Source: a virus
Virus record (IMG/VR): IMGVR_UViG_3300019762_000004
Location: 1 to 37,983 of that record
Reading direction: 5' to 3' (one strand)
DNA: 37,983 nt
Shown in pieces: positions 18,267 to 36,271 of this stretch. Under the pieces are notes generated by a model. The model did not search any database and was not told the DNA's origin. It worked only from the letters and a program-made list of their open reading frames with translations. Position 1 is the first letter of the stretch, and each line of letters opens with the position of its first letter. The position numbers were made by a program, and so were the translations under genes.

Positions 18267-18299
18267 GAAATAGGACCTTCTATAAGGTTCTATTTTTTA
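18218..18299 (+). ncRNA. Candidate antisense RNA (about 80 nt) behind repA
   Basis: A rightward transcript from the promoter at 18183 would contain a 6-7-bp hairpin with loop TCCCT (AGATAT/ATATCT) and end at an 11-bp stem (AATAGGACCTT/AAGGTTCTATT, one G-U pair) followed by TTTTTAT. On this strand the stem is unbroken, while on the opposite strand the G-U becomes an A-C mismatch with no U-tract, so the terminator is built for this strand. It is complementary to the ribosome binding site and most of the 22-residue frame. A link to RepA_N copy control or a type I toxin pair is inference. Confidence 0.45.
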
Positions 18300-19001
18300 T
18301 ATCTCTCTTTCTATTATTGCGTTCAGATAGTTCAAATTACAGTAATCGTATTTAGTCAAATGCCTTTCAAATACTTCTAGCCAGTCATTAGTGTTAAAAT
18401 CTTCTATGAATCCTTCTAGCTTACTGTATTCATTGTTTGGATCATGATATCTAACAGGCTTACCAAAGGTTTTGATACTAAAATCATTCAATAGATTTAA
18501 TAACACAGTCGTCTTTTCATCGAAAAGATGTAAGTATTTAGTATCGTTATGCTTAGTCTCTTTACTCTCAGTATCATTACCAAGCGATTTTGACACTTCT
18601 AGATAAGTCATATCGACTATCCTAGATTTATCATTATGACTATTCAAAGTAGTATCAACACTTTCAGGCTTTAGAATATACATTCTATTCGGTTTGCCTT
18701 GCCCTTGTCTAACTTGTAGCATCAATCTAGCTTTAATTAATTCTTTCTTGTACCTATTAATAGTACTTGTCGAAACGCTCATGTATTCAGCTAACTTCTC
18801 ACAATCATAATAGAAGAATATAAAACCGTTATCATCTATCCAATCGTTTTTAATACTTAGGTCTTGCCTGTCTCTTAATATAGAATACATCATCTTGCAA
18901 CCATTAGAAATATTGCTATATATCCTATTATCATACAACTTTTTAGGTGTCTGAAAAAACGTAAGTGTTTCTTGATCGTTCTTGCTATATAATCTACTCA
19001 T
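18297..19001 (-). CDS. repA: RepA_N-type plasmid replication initiator
   Basis: This 234-residue protein would bind the plasmid origin and recruit host replisome parts. The start is ATG 19001, placed after a near-perfect AAGGAGGTGAT; an upstream GTG lies inside that site and is unlikely. Residues 15-95 carry the RepA_N pattern: FFQTPKKLYDN, SNGCKMMYSILRDRQDLSIK, NDWIDDNGFIFFYY, then a helix-turn-helix (AEYMSVSTSTINRYKKELIK). Residues 195-234 form the helical C-domain. RepA_N initiators are known from low-copy plasmids of Bacillota such as pAD1 and pSK41. The central linker holds repeated DNA (18541-18638), where the origin lies in this family. Confidence 0.88.
   Translation of the reverse strand: MSRLYSKNDQETLTFFQTPKKLYDNRIYSNISNGCKMMYSILRDRQDLSIKNDWIDDNGFIFFYYDCEKLAEYMSVSTSTINRYKKELIKARLMLQVRQGQGKPNRMYILKPESVDTTLNSHNDKSRIVDMTYLEVSKSLGNDTESKETKHNDTKYLHLFDEKTTVLLNLLNDFSIKTFGKPVRYHDPNNEYSKLEGFIEDFNTNDWLEVFERHLTKYDYCNLNYLNAIIEREI
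18541..18638. repeat. Iteron-like repeats inside repA (candidate plasmid origin)
   Basis: Three similar 11-mers occur in the same orientation: GTATCGTTATG (18541), GTATCATTACC (18571) and TTATCATTATG (18628). They lie in the variable linker of the initiator (residues about 121-153, peptides HNDK, GNDT, HNDT). In RepA_N plasmids the origin lies within the central part of rep, so the place is right. The copies are imperfect and the spacing is uneven (30 and 57 bases). Confidence 0.4.
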
Positions 19002-19027
19002 TGTTATCACCTCCTTTCTATAGTAAC

Positions 19028-19056
19028 ATTATAACACATAATCAATATAAAGTGAA
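19028..19056 (-). promoter_or_regulatory. repA promoter with extended -10
   Basis: On the minus strand TTCACT (4/6) is 17 bases from TATAAT preceded by TGT, an extended -10. It would start repA mRNA about 20 bases before ATG 19001. It lies back to back with the rightward promoter at 19076-19104. Confidence 0.65.
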
Positions 19057-19075: not shown

Positions 19076-19104
19076 TTGACTTTTACAACTGTAGATGATA
19101 TTAT
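19076..19104 (+). promoter_or_regulatory. Early rightward promoter
   Basis: TTGACT (5/6) is 17 bases from TATTAT (5/6). The transcript would begin near 19111 and carry AAGGGAGGTGAG, the ribosome binding site of the AbrB-like gene. This promoter is divergent from repA, so one regulator in the 120-base gap could control both directions. Confidence 0.75.
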
Positions 19105-24827: not shown

Positions 24828-24970
24828 TGGAAGGTATGACAAAAGAGGAATTTGTTGATAGAATGATGAAAGAACGCTTTATGAAGAAGGAAAAGGCTAG
24901 CCAAATGTCAAAAAGTTTTATAATTGATAGATGTATGGAAAGCAAGTACAAAGGCAGACGTAGAAAATAG
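24827..24970 (+). CDS. Small basic helical protein (47 aa)
   Basis: Translation is coupled by TAATG. The frame is Met/Lys-rich and helical (TKEEFVDRMMKERFMKKEKA) with a basic end (KYKGRRRK). It could be a small DNA-binding or modulator protein. It is the last gene before the 206-base control region ahead of the repressor. Confidence 0.5.
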   Translation: MEGMTKEEFVDRMMKERFMKKEKASQMSKSFIIDRCMESKYKGRRRK

Positions 24971-25102
24971 TCGCACACGCTATTATAAGTGTGCATGAAG
25001 TTTCTCTTTGGAAGGTTTTGTGGAATCTCCATAACTTAACAGATGAATAATTCCAGCGAATCTTATTCAGAGAATGCCGTCCTTAATTGGTCGGCTTTTT
25101 AT
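24971..25102 (+). ncRNA. Structured untranslated region, candidate RNA element
   Basis: Between the small basic gene and the repressor lies a run of four possible hairpins: GCACAC/GTGTGC (24973-24994), TTGTGGA/TCCATAA (around 25018-25034), TGAATAA/TTATTCA (25044-25069) and a terminator stem. No reading frame is convincing. It may be a structured 3' end of the early mRNA or a separate small RNA; I see no strong promoter of its own. Confidence 0.3.
25076..25102 (+). terminator. Early-operon terminator
   Basis: The stem GCCG-T-CC/GG-T-CGGC (25076-25082 with 25089-25095, one T-T mismatch) with loop TTAATT and a TTTTT tract would end the early transcript before the repressor promoter. Confidence 0.7.
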
Positions 25103-25119: not shown

Positions 25120-25154
25120 AAAGTGTTGACATTCCACTTTAAAAGGTATAGTAT
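25120..25154 (+). promoter_or_regulatory. Repressor promoter overlapped by an inverted-repeat operator
   Basis: A perfect -35 TTGACA (25126-25131) lies within the loop of AAAGTG-9-CACTTT (25120-25140). The -10 is TAGTAT at 17 bases or TATAGT at 15. A repressor dimer on the palindrome would cover the -35, so the downstream XRE protein probably controls its own promoter. Confidence 0.7.
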
Positions 25155-25177: not shown

Positions 25178-25378
25178 ATGTTAAACATGAAAATAGCAAG
25201 GCTTAAAAAAGGTTTAAATCAATCTGAATTGGCAGAATTGGTAGGAGTGCAATCCAAGATAATCAGCAGATACGAAACTGGCGTTAATTATCCTACCGTA
25301 GATACATTGCTTAAGATTTCAGAAGCACTTAATGTTTCCGTGGACTACTTACTAGGAATAACAGACAAGGAGAGATAA
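25178..25378 (+). CDS. XRE-family (Cro/CI-like) repressor (66 aa)
   Basis: The protein is a single HTH_3 domain: LNMKIARLKKGLNQSELAEL, then VQSKIISRYETGVNYPTVDT and LLKISEALNVSVDYLLGI. It lacks a dimerisation or cleavage domain, so it resembles short Cro-like or Gram-positive plasmid/phage repressors and is unlikely to be RecA-cleaved. It follows the operator promoter with AGGAGG and is one base before the replication initiator, so it probably controls phage replication directly. Confidence 0.88.
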   Translation: MLNMKIARLKKGLNQSELAELVGVQSKIISRYETGVNYPTVDTLLKISEALNVSVDYLLGITDKER

Positions 25379-25379
25379 C

Positions 25380-26081
25380 TTGAAAGACACAGGATGGATA
25401 AAACTTCATAGATCAATAACTGATAGTTTTGTTTTCGACAATCCTGATAGGCTAAAATTTTGGGTATGGTGCTTATGCAAGGCCAGTCATAAAGACAGAA
25501 AACAAACTGTAGGGTTACAAGAAATCGAGTTAAAAAAAGGACAATTTATATTCGGAAGAAAGAAAGCTTCTGCTGAATTAAATATGGACGAAAACAAGAT
25601 TTATCGATTGAGCAAAACGTTTCAAAAGCGCGAGAAGATAGTGGTTAAATCGAACAACAAATATTCTCTTGTAACTGTTGTAAATTGGGAGTTCTACCAA
25701 GGAGAACGACAACAAAGTGAACAGCTAACCGACAACAAACCGACAACAAACCGACAACAAACCGACACAAACAAGAATGTAAAGAATATAAAGAATGAAA
25801 AAATAATACTATGGGGATTGGTTGAAGATTGCTCAAAAGATTTAGTTAGAGCTTACAAGGATTTTAATATAATGAGAAATTCAATCAAGAAGCCACTGAC
25901 CAAAAGAGCGCTTGCCGGCATAATAAAAAAAGTTGATAATTTCGCTGATAATGAAAGCGACAAGATAAAAATACTTGAAAATTCAATAGAGCATTCATGG
26001 CAAACAGTGTACGAATTAAAAATGTCGACCTCAAAAGAATCACTTAGTGTTGTGGTTGCTCCGAAAGGGTGGTGTGAATGA
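25380..26081 (+). CDS. Phage replisome organizer, DnaD-like initiator (233 aa)
   Basis: TTG 25380 follows AAGGAG and is the likely start. Residues 1-105 match the N-terminal domain of Gram-positive phage replisome organizers (TGWIKLHRSITDSFVFDNPD; a winged helix with ASAELNMDENKIYRLSKTFQ). Residues 110-140 form a Thr/Asn/Gln linker encoded by tandem DNA repeats. The C-terminal part is helical and DnaD-like. It would bind the repeats inside its own gene, open DNA and load the helicase coded immediately downstream (ATGA overlap). Confidence 0.8.
   Translation: MKDTGWIKLHRSITDSFVFDNPDRLKFWVWCLCKASHKDRKQTVGLQEIELKKGQFIFGRKKASAELNMDENKIYRLSKTFQKREKIVVKSNNKYSLVTVVNWEFYQGERQQSEQLTDNKPTTNRQQTDTNKNVKNIKNEKIILWGLVEDCSKDLVRAYKDFNIMRNSIKKPLTKRALAGIIKKVDNFADNESDKIKILENSIEHSWQTVYELKMSTSKESLSVVVAPKGWCE
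25706..25771. repeat. Tandem 11-bp iterons within the initiator gene: candidate phage origin
   Basis: ACCGACAACAA occurs three times exactly and back to back (25728-25760), with a one-base-deleted fourth copy (25761-25771) and a diverged copy at 25706-25715. Because 11 is not a multiple of three, the encoded peptide is not repetitive, so selection acts on the DNA. A very A-rich stretch follows (AAGAATGTAAAGAATATAAA, from 25772), like an unwinding element. Origins in this position are known for Gram-positive phage initiators. Confidence 0.75.
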
Positions 26082-27349
26082 GATTATATCCACAAGATAT
26101 AAAAGCAGAACAAGCATTAATAAGTTCAATGATACTTGACAATAGAATTATTGACGACGTTTTAAGCAAAATTACAAGCGATTATTTTTCAAGAATGGAT
26201 CACCAAGCTATATTTGAGAACATTCAAATACTAAGAGACAATAGAGTATCGATTGATTTGATTACATTGTCTGATAAATTGCCTAATAACAGTCATTACA
26301 TTTCAGAAATTACAACAGAGTTTTATACTGTTTACAACTACAATCATTATTTGGATATAATCGTAGACAAATATGAGTTAAGACAATTAGCTGAATATTC
26401 TAGCGAAATAATAAGAAGGATAGAGGAATCTGACGAGCCTAAAGAATATGCTCAAACACATGAATTTGATTTTAGAAAGTCGGATGAAATCAATCCAAGC
26501 ATGGCATTAGTAGCATTTGAAGAACTTGAATACATGAGAGAGATGCACGAAAGCAAAAAACCAAAAGGATTAAAAACTGGATTCAATGATTTGGATTATC
26601 TGCTTGATGGGTTAAAAGATGGTGATTTAATAACTATTGGGGCTAGGCCATCTATGGGAAAATCAACATTAGCAGTAAACATTATCAACAATATTGCTAA
26701 AAGTGGCAAGGTGGTGCAGATGTTTAGTTTGGAAATGAACAAGCGAAAACTTATGCAAAGAATGGCTTTCAGTTTGGCTAGAGTAAGCATGAGAAATTAT
26801 AAAAATAAATGTGTATCAGAATCTCAATGGAGTAAGATTACAAACGCTGTGGCAGATATATCAAATCAAAAGATATTTGTGCATGAAGAAAGCGTGAATG
26901 TATTGCAAATTAAAAGCAAAGCTAAAAGGTTGAAGAAAAAGCATGGTTTAGATTTGTTAGTGATAGATCATTTAGGATTATTAGATGATTCGAAGAAACA
27001 TAATTCAGAAAATGACAAGATAGGATTTGAAACAAAGACTTTAAAGAGGTTAGCTGGTGAATTAAATTGCCCGATAATAATACTTTCTCAATTATCTAGG
27101 GCTATAGAACAAAGACCGATAGAACATAGGCGACCACAATTATCCGATTTAAGAAACAGCGGAAATATAGAGCAAGATTCTGATGTGGTAATGTTTTTAT
27201 TTAGAGATGAATATTATACTAAAGAAGAAACAAAAAAGCCTGGAATTGGCGAAGTAATAATAGCAAAAAATAGAGATGGGGAATTAGGAGTAGTTGAACT
27301 TGCGTTCTTTGGAGAAATGACTAGATTCGAAAACTTATCAAGAGGATAG
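26078..27349 (+). CDS. DnaB-like replicative helicase
   Basis: The 423-residue protein has the DnaB N-domain (DIKAEQALISSMILDNRIID) and RecA-like core. Walker A is GARPSMGKST (188-197), Walker B LLVID (293-297), followed by the QLSRAIEQRP motif and LSDLRNSGNIEQDSDVVMFL. It would unwind phage DNA at the fork. It overlaps the initiator stop as ATGA, the standard initiator-helicase pair, which suggests theta-type replication independent of RepA. It is slightly shorter than cellular DnaB, as usual for phages. Confidence 0.93.
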   Translation: MRLYPQDIKAEQALISSMILDNRIIDDVLSKITSDYFSRMDHQAIFENIQILRDNRVSIDLITLSDKLPNNSHYISEITTEFYTVYNYNHYLDIIVDKYELRQLAEYSSEIIRRIEESDEPKEYAQTHEFDFRKSDEINPSMALVAFEELEYMREMHESKKPKGLKTGFNDLDYLLDGLKDGDLITIGARPSMGKSTLAVNIINNIAKSGKVVQMFSLEMNKRKLMQRMAFSLARVSMRNYKNKCVSESQWSKITNAVADISNQKIFVHEESVNVLQIKSKAKRLKKKHGLDLLVIDHLGLLDDSKKHNSENDKIGFETKTLKRLAGELNCPIIILSQLSRAIEQRPIEHRRPQLSDLRNSGNIEQDSDVVMFLFRDEYYTKEETKKPGIGEVIIAKNRDGELGVVELAFFGEMTRFENLSRG

Positions 27350-28621: not shown

Positions 28622-29323
28622 ATGAAAGTATTAGTATTGTATTCGGGGACACAAGTTCTTGATAATCAATTCAGGGCAAATGGTCATAAAGTGGTAAGTG
28701 TAGAGTTGAATGAAGATTTCACTAAAAAACCATGGAACTTGGAACAATGGACAATTAGCGTCGGAGAATTAAAGATTAAAGAAATAATTAAAAGGCTAGG
28801 AGGTTATCCTGATATTATATGGGCAAGTCCTCTATGTACCACGCATAGCATTGCGGCTATAAGCACACACAGACAAAGCCTTGATAATGGAATTGGGTCT
28901 ACTCAAAAAGAAAGGAAAGACAGCAATGCATTAATCGCCAAAAGCGAGAAAGCTAAATCCCACGATCAATTACTATTAAAAACTCTTATGATTATACAGG
29001 AGTTAAAGCCAAAGTTATATTTTATAGAAAACCCAAGGGGGGGCATGAGAAAAAGTCAGTTAATGAGGGGTGTTATGTATAGATATACTGTAACCTATTG
29101 TTCATATGGAGATATATCGATGAAACCCACTGATATATGGACCAATCATCCTAATCCTAAATTTAAGCCAATGTGTTGGAATGGAAACACAGATTGTCAT
29201 CATCAACCAGCGCCAAGAGGGAGCAAAACAGGCACTCAAGGCAAAAAAGGTAATTTGGAACGATCTAAGATACCATTAGAATTATGTAAACATATTGTAA
29301 ACATATGCGAGGAATTTAGATGA
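28622..29323 (+). CDS. Cytosine-methyltransferase-fold protein, divergent (233 aa)
   Basis: It starts MKVLVLYSGT...VVSVELNEDF (motif I and II of the Rossmann fold), then IIWASPLCTTHS (69-72, C72 in the place of the catalytic Cys of the PCQ motif) and FIENPRGGMR (136-140, motif VI ENV-like). The usual QxRxR motif VIII is not present; instead GDISMKPTDIWTNH occurs. This pattern is common in phage 'DNA methylase' proteins whose activity is unproven. It may modify phage DNA or be a non-catalytic relative. A second, canonical enzyme is coded at 30795. Confidence 0.65.
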   Translation: MKVLVLYSGTQVLDNQFRANGHKVVSVELNEDFTKKPWNLEQWTISVGELKIKEIIKRLGGYPDIIWASPLCTTHSIAAISTHRQSLDNGIGSTQKERKDSNALIAKSEKAKSHDQLLLKTLMIIQELKPKLYFIENPRGGMRKSQLMRGVMYRYTVTYCSYGDISMKPTDIWTNHPNPKFKPMCWNGNTDCHHQPAPRGSKTGTQGKKGNLERSKIPLELCKHIVNICEEFR

Positions 29324-29887: not shown

Positions 29888-30598
29888 ATGAAGATAGTTG
29901 AATTAAAAAAAGAATTACCAGTTACTAATAGTGAAATCGTAGCTGAAGGTACAAACAGAACTCACAAATCAGTGATACAACTTATTCGGCAGTATGAAAA
30001 ACAATTAAACGAGTTCGGAACTTTAGCATTTGAAATGCGTAAGTCAGGCGGTAGACCTACCGAGATAGCATTGTTAAATGAGTCGCAAGTATACTTTTTG
30101 ATGACGTTAATGAGAAACAATGAAATAGTAGTGCTATTCAAAAAAAGATTAGTTAAAGAATTTATGAAAATGAAACAAGCTTTGATCCAATTACAAGTCA
30201 ATAGAAATAACGACGAATGGAAACTAAACAGAGATAAAGGAAAGAGAATCAGGAAGGAAACTACTGACACGATTCAGGATTTCGTTAGATACGCAACCAA
30301 TCAAGGTAGTAAAAACGCTGTTAAGTATTATGGCAATATAACTAAAATGGAAAATAAAGCGTTGTTTATACTAGAGCAAAAATATCCTAATGTAAGACAA
30401 ATGTTGAATAATTATCAGTTAACAACATTACACACCGCTGACATGATAGTTTCGGAAGCGTTAAAAGATGGAATGGAAAAAAAATTACACTATAAAGAAA
30501 TCTACAAACTAGCCAAAGAAAGGGTTGAAAAGTTATCACTATTAATTAAGCCAACAATGGTTATCAGTTATGAAGAAGTGAAAGTATTGGAGGACTAA
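29888..30598 (+). CDS. rha: Rha-family phage regulatory protein (236 aa)
   Basis: The N-terminal 100 residues carry the Rha signature: VTNSEIVAEGTNRTHKSVIQ, RKSGGRPTEIALLNESQVYF and LMRNNEIVVLFKKRLVKEFM. The C-terminal part is a separate helical domain with a basic linker (NRDKGKRIRKETTD), the two-part plan of Rha/antirepressor proteins. Rha proteins modulate phage growth or lysogeny decisions. The promoter with an inverted repeat just upstream suggests it is itself repressed. The gene has RBS AAAGGTGG. Confidence 0.82.
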   Translation: MKIVELKKELPVTNSEIVAEGTNRTHKSVIQLIRQYEKQLNEFGTLAFEMRKSGGRPTEIALLNESQVYFLMTLMRNNEIVVLFKKRLVKEFMKMKQALIQLQVNRNNDEWKLNRDKGKRIRKETTDTIQDFVRYATNQGSKNAVKYYGNITKMENKALFILEQKYPNVRQMLNNYQLTTLHTADMIVSEALKDGMEKKLHYKEIYKLAKERVEKLSLLIKPTMVISYEEVKVLED

Positions 30599-30794: not shown

Positions 30795-31706
30795 ATGAAT
30801 GTATTAAGTTTGTTTGATGGAATGAGTTGTGGAAGAATAGCCTTAGAAAAAGCAGGGGTTAAAGTTAACAATTATTTTAGTAGCGAGATAAAAGAACACG
30901 CTATTGAGGTTGCTAATTATAATTACCAAGAAGATGAAAAAAATAGACTTGGAGATATAACGGAAATAGACGGATTTAATTTGCCTAAAATTGATTTATT
31001 AATCGGTGGTAGTCCTTGTCAAGACTTTAGTGTAGCTAACAAAGAAAGATTGGGAGTGGAAGGGATTAAAAGTGGATTGTTTTATGAATTTGTAAGGCTA
31101 TTAAAAGAAACTAAACCTAAATACTTTTTATTGGAAAATGTCAGAATGAAAAAAGAACATCAAGACATAATTAGCAAAGAGTTAGGTTGTGAACCTATTA
31201 TTATAAACTCAAAAGAAATAGCACCACAGTTAAGACATAGATTGTATTGGACTAATATTCCGAATATAACAAATATAGTACCAAAAGATACTTTTTTAAA
31301 TGAAGTGCTAGATAACGGTTGGGCTGACAGAAAAAAAGCGAGAGCGTTATTAGAAAGTGATTCAAGGCCATTGACTACACCGGTTAAAATGTGTCACAGA
31401 TACTTTAATACAGGATTTACAACGCTAATATTTAAGTCAAAAGAACATTATACGGAACTAAAAAAACACTTTGATCAAAACTTTAAAGGCAAAAAAGCAA
31501 AAGAAATTGACGTCCTAATTCCAAGTATGGATTTAAGCGTTTACAATGGAGTACGTTATATGAATAAAAAAGAAAGAGAAAGATGCCAAACGGTACCAGA
31601 AGGTTATACAGAAATATTGAGTGAAAATGATGCAGCGTGTTTGCTAGGTGATGGTTGGACAGTAGATGTAATAGCACATATACTTAGCTTTATGCCTAAG
31701 GAATAA
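30795..31706 (+). CDS. DNA (cytosine-5-)-methyltransferase (303 aa)
   Basis: All core motifs are visible: LSLFDGMSCGRIALEKAG (SAM binding, 4-21), SPCQDFS (73-79, catalytic C75), LLENVRM (motif VI), QLRHRLYW (145-152, motif VIII) and a closing LLGDGWTVDVIAHI (motif X). The target-recognition region (about 165-260) is short. Of the C5 enzymes it most resembles the compact Dnmt3-like phage type. I see no companion restriction enzyme, so it probably masks phage DNA from host restriction or alters gene control. Confidence 0.9.
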   Translation: MNVLSLFDGMSCGRIALEKAGVKVNNYFSSEIKEHAIEVANYNYQEDEKNRLGDITEIDGFNLPKIDLLIGGSPCQDFSVANKERLGVEGIKSGLFYEFVRLLKETKPKYFLLENVRMKKEHQDIISKELGCEPIIINSKEIAPQLRHRLYWTNIPNITNIVPKDTFLNEVLDNGWADRKKARALLESDSRPLTTPVKMCHRYFNTGFTTLIFKSKEHYTELKKHFDQNFKGKKAKEIDVLIPSMDLSVYNGVRYMNKKERERCQTVPEGYTEILSENDAACLLGDGWTVDVIAHILSFMPKE

Positions 31707-35676: not shown

Positions 35677-36271
35677 ATTTAATTATTAGGAGGAACAATG
35701 AAAGAAATATGGAAAGATATAAAAGGATATGAGGGGTATTACCAAGTTAGCACCTTAGGAAGAGTTAAAAGTCTAGACAGGATAGTGTTGGCTAAAGATA
35801 AAAGGAAGATAAATTACAAAGGCAAGATTCTAAAGCTTTTAACTGCTAGAAAGTATATATCGGTATCTTTAAACAAATCAGGCGAATTTAAATCACCGTC
35901 AGTACACAGAATTGTTGCAGAAACCTTTATAGATAACCCGTTGTTAAAACAAGAAGTAAATCACATGGATGGAAATAAGTATAATAATCACGTTGACAAT
36001 CTGGAGTGGTGTACAAGAAAAGAAAATGATGATCATGCAAGAAAAACAGGGTTAACAAATACAAAAGGAGAAAATTGTTCATTATCTAAATTAAAAGAAA
36101 AAGATGTAATTGAAATTAGAAGATTATACGCGACTGGTGATTATTATCAAAAAGATATAGCTGAAATGTTTGGGATAACACAAGGCGGTGTCGGTCATAT
36201 AGTTAGGAGGATGGTATGGAAGCACATTTAGAAAAAACTATACGTATCACCCCTCTATATTTTGATTACAT
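35611..36271 (+). repeat. Short direct repeats flanking the HNH gene
   Basis: TTTGATTACAT occurs at 35611-35621 and 36261-36271; ACCCCTCTA occurs at 35668-35676 and 36249-36257. Their order is reversed on the two sides, so they are not one simple target duplication but two separate words shared by the terL start and the segment before the HNH gene. Confidence 0.6.
35698..36231 (+). CDS. HNH homing endonuclease (NUMOD4-HNH) between terS and terL
   Basis: Domains in order: NUMOD4 (WKDIKGYEGYYQVSTLGRVK, 5-24), an HNH_3 core with VHRIVAETFIDNP and VNHMDGNKYNNHVDNLEW (87-104, H89 and N97), and a C-terminal helix-turn-helix (YYQKDIAEMFGITQGGVGHI). Such free-standing endonucleases spread by cutting related genomes lacking them, and may be needed for or modulate packaging. 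Its end overlaps the terL start by 16 bases, so it supplies the terL ribosome binding site (AGGAGG). AT content resembles its neighbours. Confidence 0.9.
   Translation: MKEIWKDIKGYEGYYQVSTLGRVKSLDRIVLAKDKRKINYKGKILKLLTARKYISVSLNKSGEFKSPSVHRIVAETFIDNPLLKQEVNHMDGNKYNNHVDNLEWCTRKENDDHARKTGLTNTKGENCSLSKLKEKDVIEIRRLYATGDYYQKDIAEMFGITQGGVGHIVRRMVWKHI

Follow-up and report, generated by a model that had tools for sequence, protein, structure and literature searches.

Two replication systems with putative in-gene origins in a 38-kb phage genome, a probable phage-plasmid

A phage genome with two replication loci

The virus record IMGVR_UViG_3300019762_000004 (37,983 bases, hereafter the window, analyzed at its full length) carries two separate sets of replication genes: repA, coding for a RepA_N-type initiator on the minus strand, and, on the plus strand, an operon for an XRE-type regulator, a DnaD-like replication initiator/organizer and a DnaB-family replicative helicase. 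Both initiator genes contain origin-like repeats, and we favor the reading that the element is a phage-plasmid with two replicons, RepA_N for maintenance and DnaD/DnaB for lytic growth. The terminal 123 bases are identical at both ends of the record, and an independent contig with near-identical proteins (L002) runs from the terminase across the end joint into the portal gene, indicating that the phage genome is circular and complete at 37,860 bp. Its host is a low-GC bacterium, and, in addition to the plasmid replicon, genes for terminase, portal, major head protein and endolysin were recognized.

The RepA_N gene and its internal repeats

Gene repA (18297–19001, minus strand) codes for 234 aa from the ATG at 19001, with a possible GTG start at 19010. 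The N-terminal winged helix-turn-helix (wHTH) of its product matches Pfam RepA_N above the cut-off (E = 1.2e-19), the top matches in the PDB are the staphylococcal RepA_N crystal structures 4pta, 4pql and 5kbj (4pta at 2.6e-23), and a Foldseek search with the RepA model retrieved 4pql at 1.4e-10. The model consists of a confident winged-helix head, a linker predicted to be disordered (residues 116–159, predicted local distance difference test score, pLDDT, below 50) and a C-terminal domain (CTD) of five helices (helices 162–233, pLDDT about 61–76). The protein matched 2,818 plasmid records, with an identity of about 30–36 %, and the matching plasmid proteins are annotated as "replication initiator protein A". 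We considered whether RepA might be truncated (237 aa, where staphylococcal proteins have about 320 aa) and rejected this, because compact C-termini are known in viral RepA_N proteins and the model has a complete helical domain.

RepA_N plasmid replicons are characterized by a linker that is dispensable and a helical CTD that is genus-specific, and their host range is known to be narrow. The Rep protein of plasmid pSK41 is built from a head, an ori-encoding linker and a tail; four Rep boxes lie centrally in rep and are bound by the head, and primase is bound by the tail, which folds into a compact domain of five helices (PMC5703833). The window repA shows the same DNA layout, with origin-type repeats that are central in the gene and encode the linker. 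By period analysis, three degenerate 23-bp repeats, putative Rep boxes or oriV, occupy positions 18582–18650 (minus strand), directly followed by three 15-bp AATGATACTGAA-type repeats (18534–18578, minus strand). Of the periods tested, 23 was the best for this gene and likewise for every plasmid and viral RepA_N gene compared, and its two-unit score was reached by 1 % of codon shuffles; the self-match of the 23-bp repeats was 29/46 in the window, 33/46 in plasmid pUB101 and 39/46 in the viral relative G020. The 15-bp block has the unit, period and place of those in pUB101, a Staphylococcus simulans plasmid and G020. Its mismatches sum to a score of 7, compared with 12 for the runner-up elsewhere in the window, and none of 2000 codon shuffles of repA reached 7. 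The repA repeats form a weaker tandem array, yet fit the consensus of their plasmid relatives where such repeats would be expected. The same order is found in the linker region of most viral RepA_N genes examined (loci L026–L094), with three to four copies of a 23-bp semi-palindromic repeat and then about three 15-bp repeats.

As in the RepA_N theta plasmids pSK41 and pUB101, an N-terminal domain (NTD), an ori-encoding linker and a CTD are found in one gene, with the repeats at the matching place. The window RepA differs from its plasmid counterparts in being phage-borne and in its degree of identity to them, and the repA promoter lies where a pSK41-type antisense RNA leader would not fit. An Rfam scan of the window matched no RNA, and hence no known antisense control RNA.

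The XRE-DnaD-DnaB operon and its in-gene array

The DnaD-like gene (25380–26081, plus strand; TTG start, 233 aa) matches PHROG 2514 (phrog_2514), "DnaD-like helicase loader", with E = 9.9e-36; there was no match to the Pfam DnaD domain, so the name derives from PHROG families only. Its modeled product has a wHTH NTD, a disordered linker (residues 111–147) and a helical, low-confidence CTD. The gene is followed by that of the helicase (26078–27349, plus strand; 423 aa), which contains both DnaB domains (Pfam DnaB_C, 6e-87; DnaB, or DnaB_N, 1.6e-18).

Inside the DnaD-like gene there is an array of about six copies of an 11-bp iteron, CGACAACAAAC (25707–25772, plus strand), followed by 9-bp A-rich repeats, AAGAATGTA (25773–25801, plus strand; 83 % A+T), a putative DNA unwinding element, and these two blocks encode the disordered linker. 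An array of 11 or 22 bp was present at the matching place in 79 of 80 viral relatives of the gene, which are not independent, many being from near-identical staphylococcal prophages (43 distinct gene starts), and in only one of 202 other long open reading frames (ORFs) from those loci, which argues that the array is not due to chance. Named relatives from Staphylococcus, Listeria-type and Lactobacillus phages have both blocks at the matching place, with different 11-bp units. Among loci L108–L187 the 11-bp tandem array is situated at about nucleotides 330–420 of the gene, before 9-bp AAGAATGTA-like repeats, and the sequence of the unit varies among phages while its period is constant.

The origin of phage SPP1 lies inside its initiator gene 38 and comprises direct repeats and an AT-rich unwinding element (PMC6316719); this comparable arrangement supports reading the 11-bp array as a phage replication origin. 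The window also shares with the SPP1 gp38/gp39/gp40 system a phage DnaB-type helicase, but SPP1 has a separate gp39-type loader, of which none was recognized in the window, and a single initiator that serves both of its origins (PMC6316719). The phrog_2514 initiators of Phietavirus and related phages have the 11-bp and 9-bp layout and, in S. aureus phages, an NTD about 52 % identical to that of the window protein; they differ from it in the CTD, and the named examples come without RepA_N. GC skew reflected only coding-strand bias, with no origin signal beyond it.

The initial annotation had noted, in addition to RepA_N, a DnaD-type organizer with iterons and a DnaB-like helicase, with different promoters and origins about 7 kb apart. 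The Pfam and PHROG matches and the conserved array bear out the first statement; as for the second, each system has its own promoter-like site, and the origin-like blocks are 7.1 kb apart, on opposite strands.

Comparison of the window (25178–27349) with its relative L108 showed that XRE and DnaD are 68 % identical and the adjoining helicase only 35 %, as if a recombination border lay between the DnaD and DnaB genes.

Promoter-like sites and putative XRE control

A promoter-like site for repA (19028–19056, minus strand; TTCACT-17-TATAAT, TG-extended) and a divergent one for the early operon (19076–19104, plus strand; TTGACT-17-TATTAT, TG-extended) are arranged back to back, about 20 bp apart. 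The XRE-DnaD-DnaB operon is preceded by a promoter-like sequence of its own (25126–25154, plus strand; TTGACA-17-TAGTAT), with a spacer motif, ACTTTAAAAG, that is kept in L108. In the window a terminator-like hairpin (25076–25101, plus strand; GCCGTCC-TTAATT-GGTCGGC-TTTTT) separates the operon from the upstream early genes, and L108 has a terminator at this place too; the hairpin was read from the sequence and missed by the terminator scan, probably because of one T-T mismatch. The approximately 135 bases upstream of the XRE promoter that end with this hairpin (24966–25101) contain no obvious gene and gave no Rfam match. Across the window 70 promoter-like matches were found against 58 expected (standard deviation 9), a count only slightly over chance, so these sites are valued by their position only.

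The regulator gene (25178–25378, plus strand) codes for an XRE/Cro-type protein of 66 aa (Pfam HTH_3, 1.1e-16). A palindrome, AAAGTG-N9-CACTTT (25120–25140), which is unique in the window, overlaps the promoter-like site and is a candidate operator to which XRE may bind, in agreement with the XRE operator that had been annotated before the organizer and helicase genes. Additionally, the 9-mer CACTTTA(A/T)A has just two sites in the genome, at 25135 (plus strand, XRE/DnaD promoter) and at 19054 (minus strand, −35 region of the repA promoter), with about one occurrence expected by chance by our own estimate. Since this candidate half-site is limited to these two promoters, XRE might conceivably act as an origin selector, a single regulator setting which in-gene origin is used, an idea that we regard as highly speculative.

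Distribution of the two systems among relatives

The RepA cassette is divergent and lies between the lysis and the early genes, the spot usually taken by a lysogeny or integration cassette and, in integrating relatives, by the integrase. In the relative G003 (65 % identical terminase and 76 % identical DUF1351 protein) there is no RepA_N at this place, where three tRNA genes (Pro, Gln and Asn; 4433–4746 in L096) are found instead. RepA_N was found in none of 42 sampled viral records that have this DnaD family, several of which are fragments, and in none of six named records with it (Phietavirus, Listeria-type and Lactobacillus examples); several relatives with this DnaD family carry integrases. 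Three DnaD homologs from plasmid records were examined as well and turned out to belong to recombinase- or integrase-bearing phages without RepA_N. A search of the window for a tyrosine integrase found none, and there is no other recombinase in its ORF inventory.

The distant phage G039, with terminase, portal and capsid genes, has its RepA_N gene at 14.5 kb and, apart from it, a pair of DnaD-like and primase-helicase genes near 7–9 kb, and no tyrosine integrase was found in it; RepA_N together with a separate DnaD-like system thus occurs in at least two phages. A TraG/coupling-protein-like ORF (6929–8299 in L085) adjoins the replication genes of G039.

Two replicons for two phases

Each replication system has a recognizable built-in origin, which suggests that the phage probably persists in plasmid form and changes origin for multiplication, as is known of P1. 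During quiescence, RepA_N would bind the 23-bp and 15-bp repeats in its own gene (18.53–18.65 kb) and recruit host replication proteins, leading to low-copy theta replication as a plasmid; no integrase would be needed, because RepA_N is proposed to maintain the genome in this form. Upon induction or infection the putatively XRE-controlled operon would be expressed, and the DnaD-like protein would bind the 11-bp iterons in its own gene (25.71–25.77 kb), open the adjacent A-rich repeats and organize the loading of the phage DnaB helicase; lytic replication would then start at 25.7 kb and reach a high level. The split between maintenance by RepA and lytic replication, as suggested in the initial annotation, stands as the best inference from the divergent position of repA, the lack of an integrase and the DnaD relatives without RepA_N; the phases themselves we infer.

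Several observations weigh against a plasmid phase. No ParA, ParM, ParB or toxin-antitoxin gene and no CI-type repressor was recognized in the window, which contains several small ORFs of unknown function, so the lysogenic state itself is presumed; neither was a host genome or an extrachromosomal copy found in the bacterial genomes searched with the window RepA or terminase. Partition genes are present in P1. Partition and addiction genes are a frequent but not strictly defining trait of phage-plasmids, and the absence of an integrase is not required of every one of them. Used alone as queries, the same two proteins revealed no close RepA relative among viral contigs and bacterial genomes, and a second assembly confirming the borders of the RepA cassette was sought and none was found. 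The main caution is that RepA_N is by itself no mark of a plasmid, because in the Streptococcus phages Javan275 and 9873 it lies within the early/lytic operon, adjoining the helicase or its loader, and is there the probable lytic initiator. The window RepA_N might likewise serve as an additional initiator of lytic replication, or of replication in other hosts, with both origins firing lytically and no plasmid state, as the absence of recognized partition and repressor genes would allow, and in SPP1 two origins some 13 kb apart are indeed both lytic (PMC6316719). Nevertheless, the window repA diverges from the early genes at a place of lysogeny type, no loader adjoins it, there is a full DnaD/DnaB system elsewhere in the window, and SPP1 runs both of its origins with one initiator, so we consider this alternative rather unlikely.

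The 23-bp repeats of the window are more degenerate than those of most viral relatives, which could mean decay and also counts against a working plasmid replicon. RepA_N would then be a decaying plasmid acquisition, or would act at the divergent promoter only, as an incompatibility factor or a regulator that binds DNA, as the back-to-back arrangement of the repA and early promoters would suit, and the DnaD origin would do all the replication. This is unlikely, given the open frame, the intact wHTH, the complete helical CTD of the model and the similarly degenerate 23-bp repeats of plasmid pUB101. It is very unlikely that the phage is strictly virulent, with the repA cassette as passive cargo and the absence of an integrase reflecting a lytic lifestyle: although no CI-like repressor or partition gene was recognized and G003 has a tRNA cassette at the place of repA, the window contains a Rha-type regulator gene (29888–30598; Pfam, 4e-16) and an XRE gene, which are typical of temperate phages, and its RepA matches plasmid proteins annotated as replication initiators.

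The preferred reading, a phage-plasmid with a maintenance and a lytic replicon, has precedents in other protein families and host groups. In P1 and P1-like phage-plasmids, as proposed here, the genes for plasmid (repA) and lytic (repL) replication are separate on one element (PMC9603915). The closest experimental precedent is Miko, one of the mycobacteriophages with extrachromosomal prophages: in this group the maintenance cassette is colinear with the integration cassette of relatives, and deletion of Miko repA left lytic growth unaltered (PMC7157519); Miko differs from the window phage in having a RepA of another kind and parABS. The Vibrio PLE, also a phage-related element, has iterons and an initiator of the RepA_N type (PMC7145576), but as a satellite it replicates while ICP1 infects the cell and does not provide a complete phage with a second replicon. 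We also considered plasmid pBS32 of B. subtilis, where SigN induction leads to over-replication without induction of repN (PMC6751061), and rejected it as a dual-mode precedent because the cause of this over-replication is not known.

Neighboring genes

Two DNA methyltransferase genes (28622–29323 and 30795–31706) flank the Rha-type regulator gene, and a NUMOD4/HNH homing-type endonuclease gene (35698–36231) is situated between the small and large terminase genes.

Significance

The principle of two replication modes on one element is already known from P1 and Miko, and the novelty is modest: it consists of the pairing of RepA_N with DnaD/DnaB, both with putative in-gene origins, in a 38-kb phage, and of the conserved anatomies of these origins. 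Among open papers, and for those words only, we found no literature joining "phage-plasmid" and "RepA_N". With its 38 kb the phage offers a compact model of two replicons, one for the plasmid and one for the lytic phase, each of which would be one gene with its origin inside. Both initiators have a three-part build, with a DNA-binding head, a repeat-encoded linker and a helical tail, and use different repeat grammars (23 and 15 bp against 11 and 9 bp). The reading makes a testable prediction on phages trading an integrase for a plasmid replicon, and the signature of 11-bp and 9-bp repeats can serve as a marker of likely origins in many phages whose hosts are low-GC Gram-positive bacteria.
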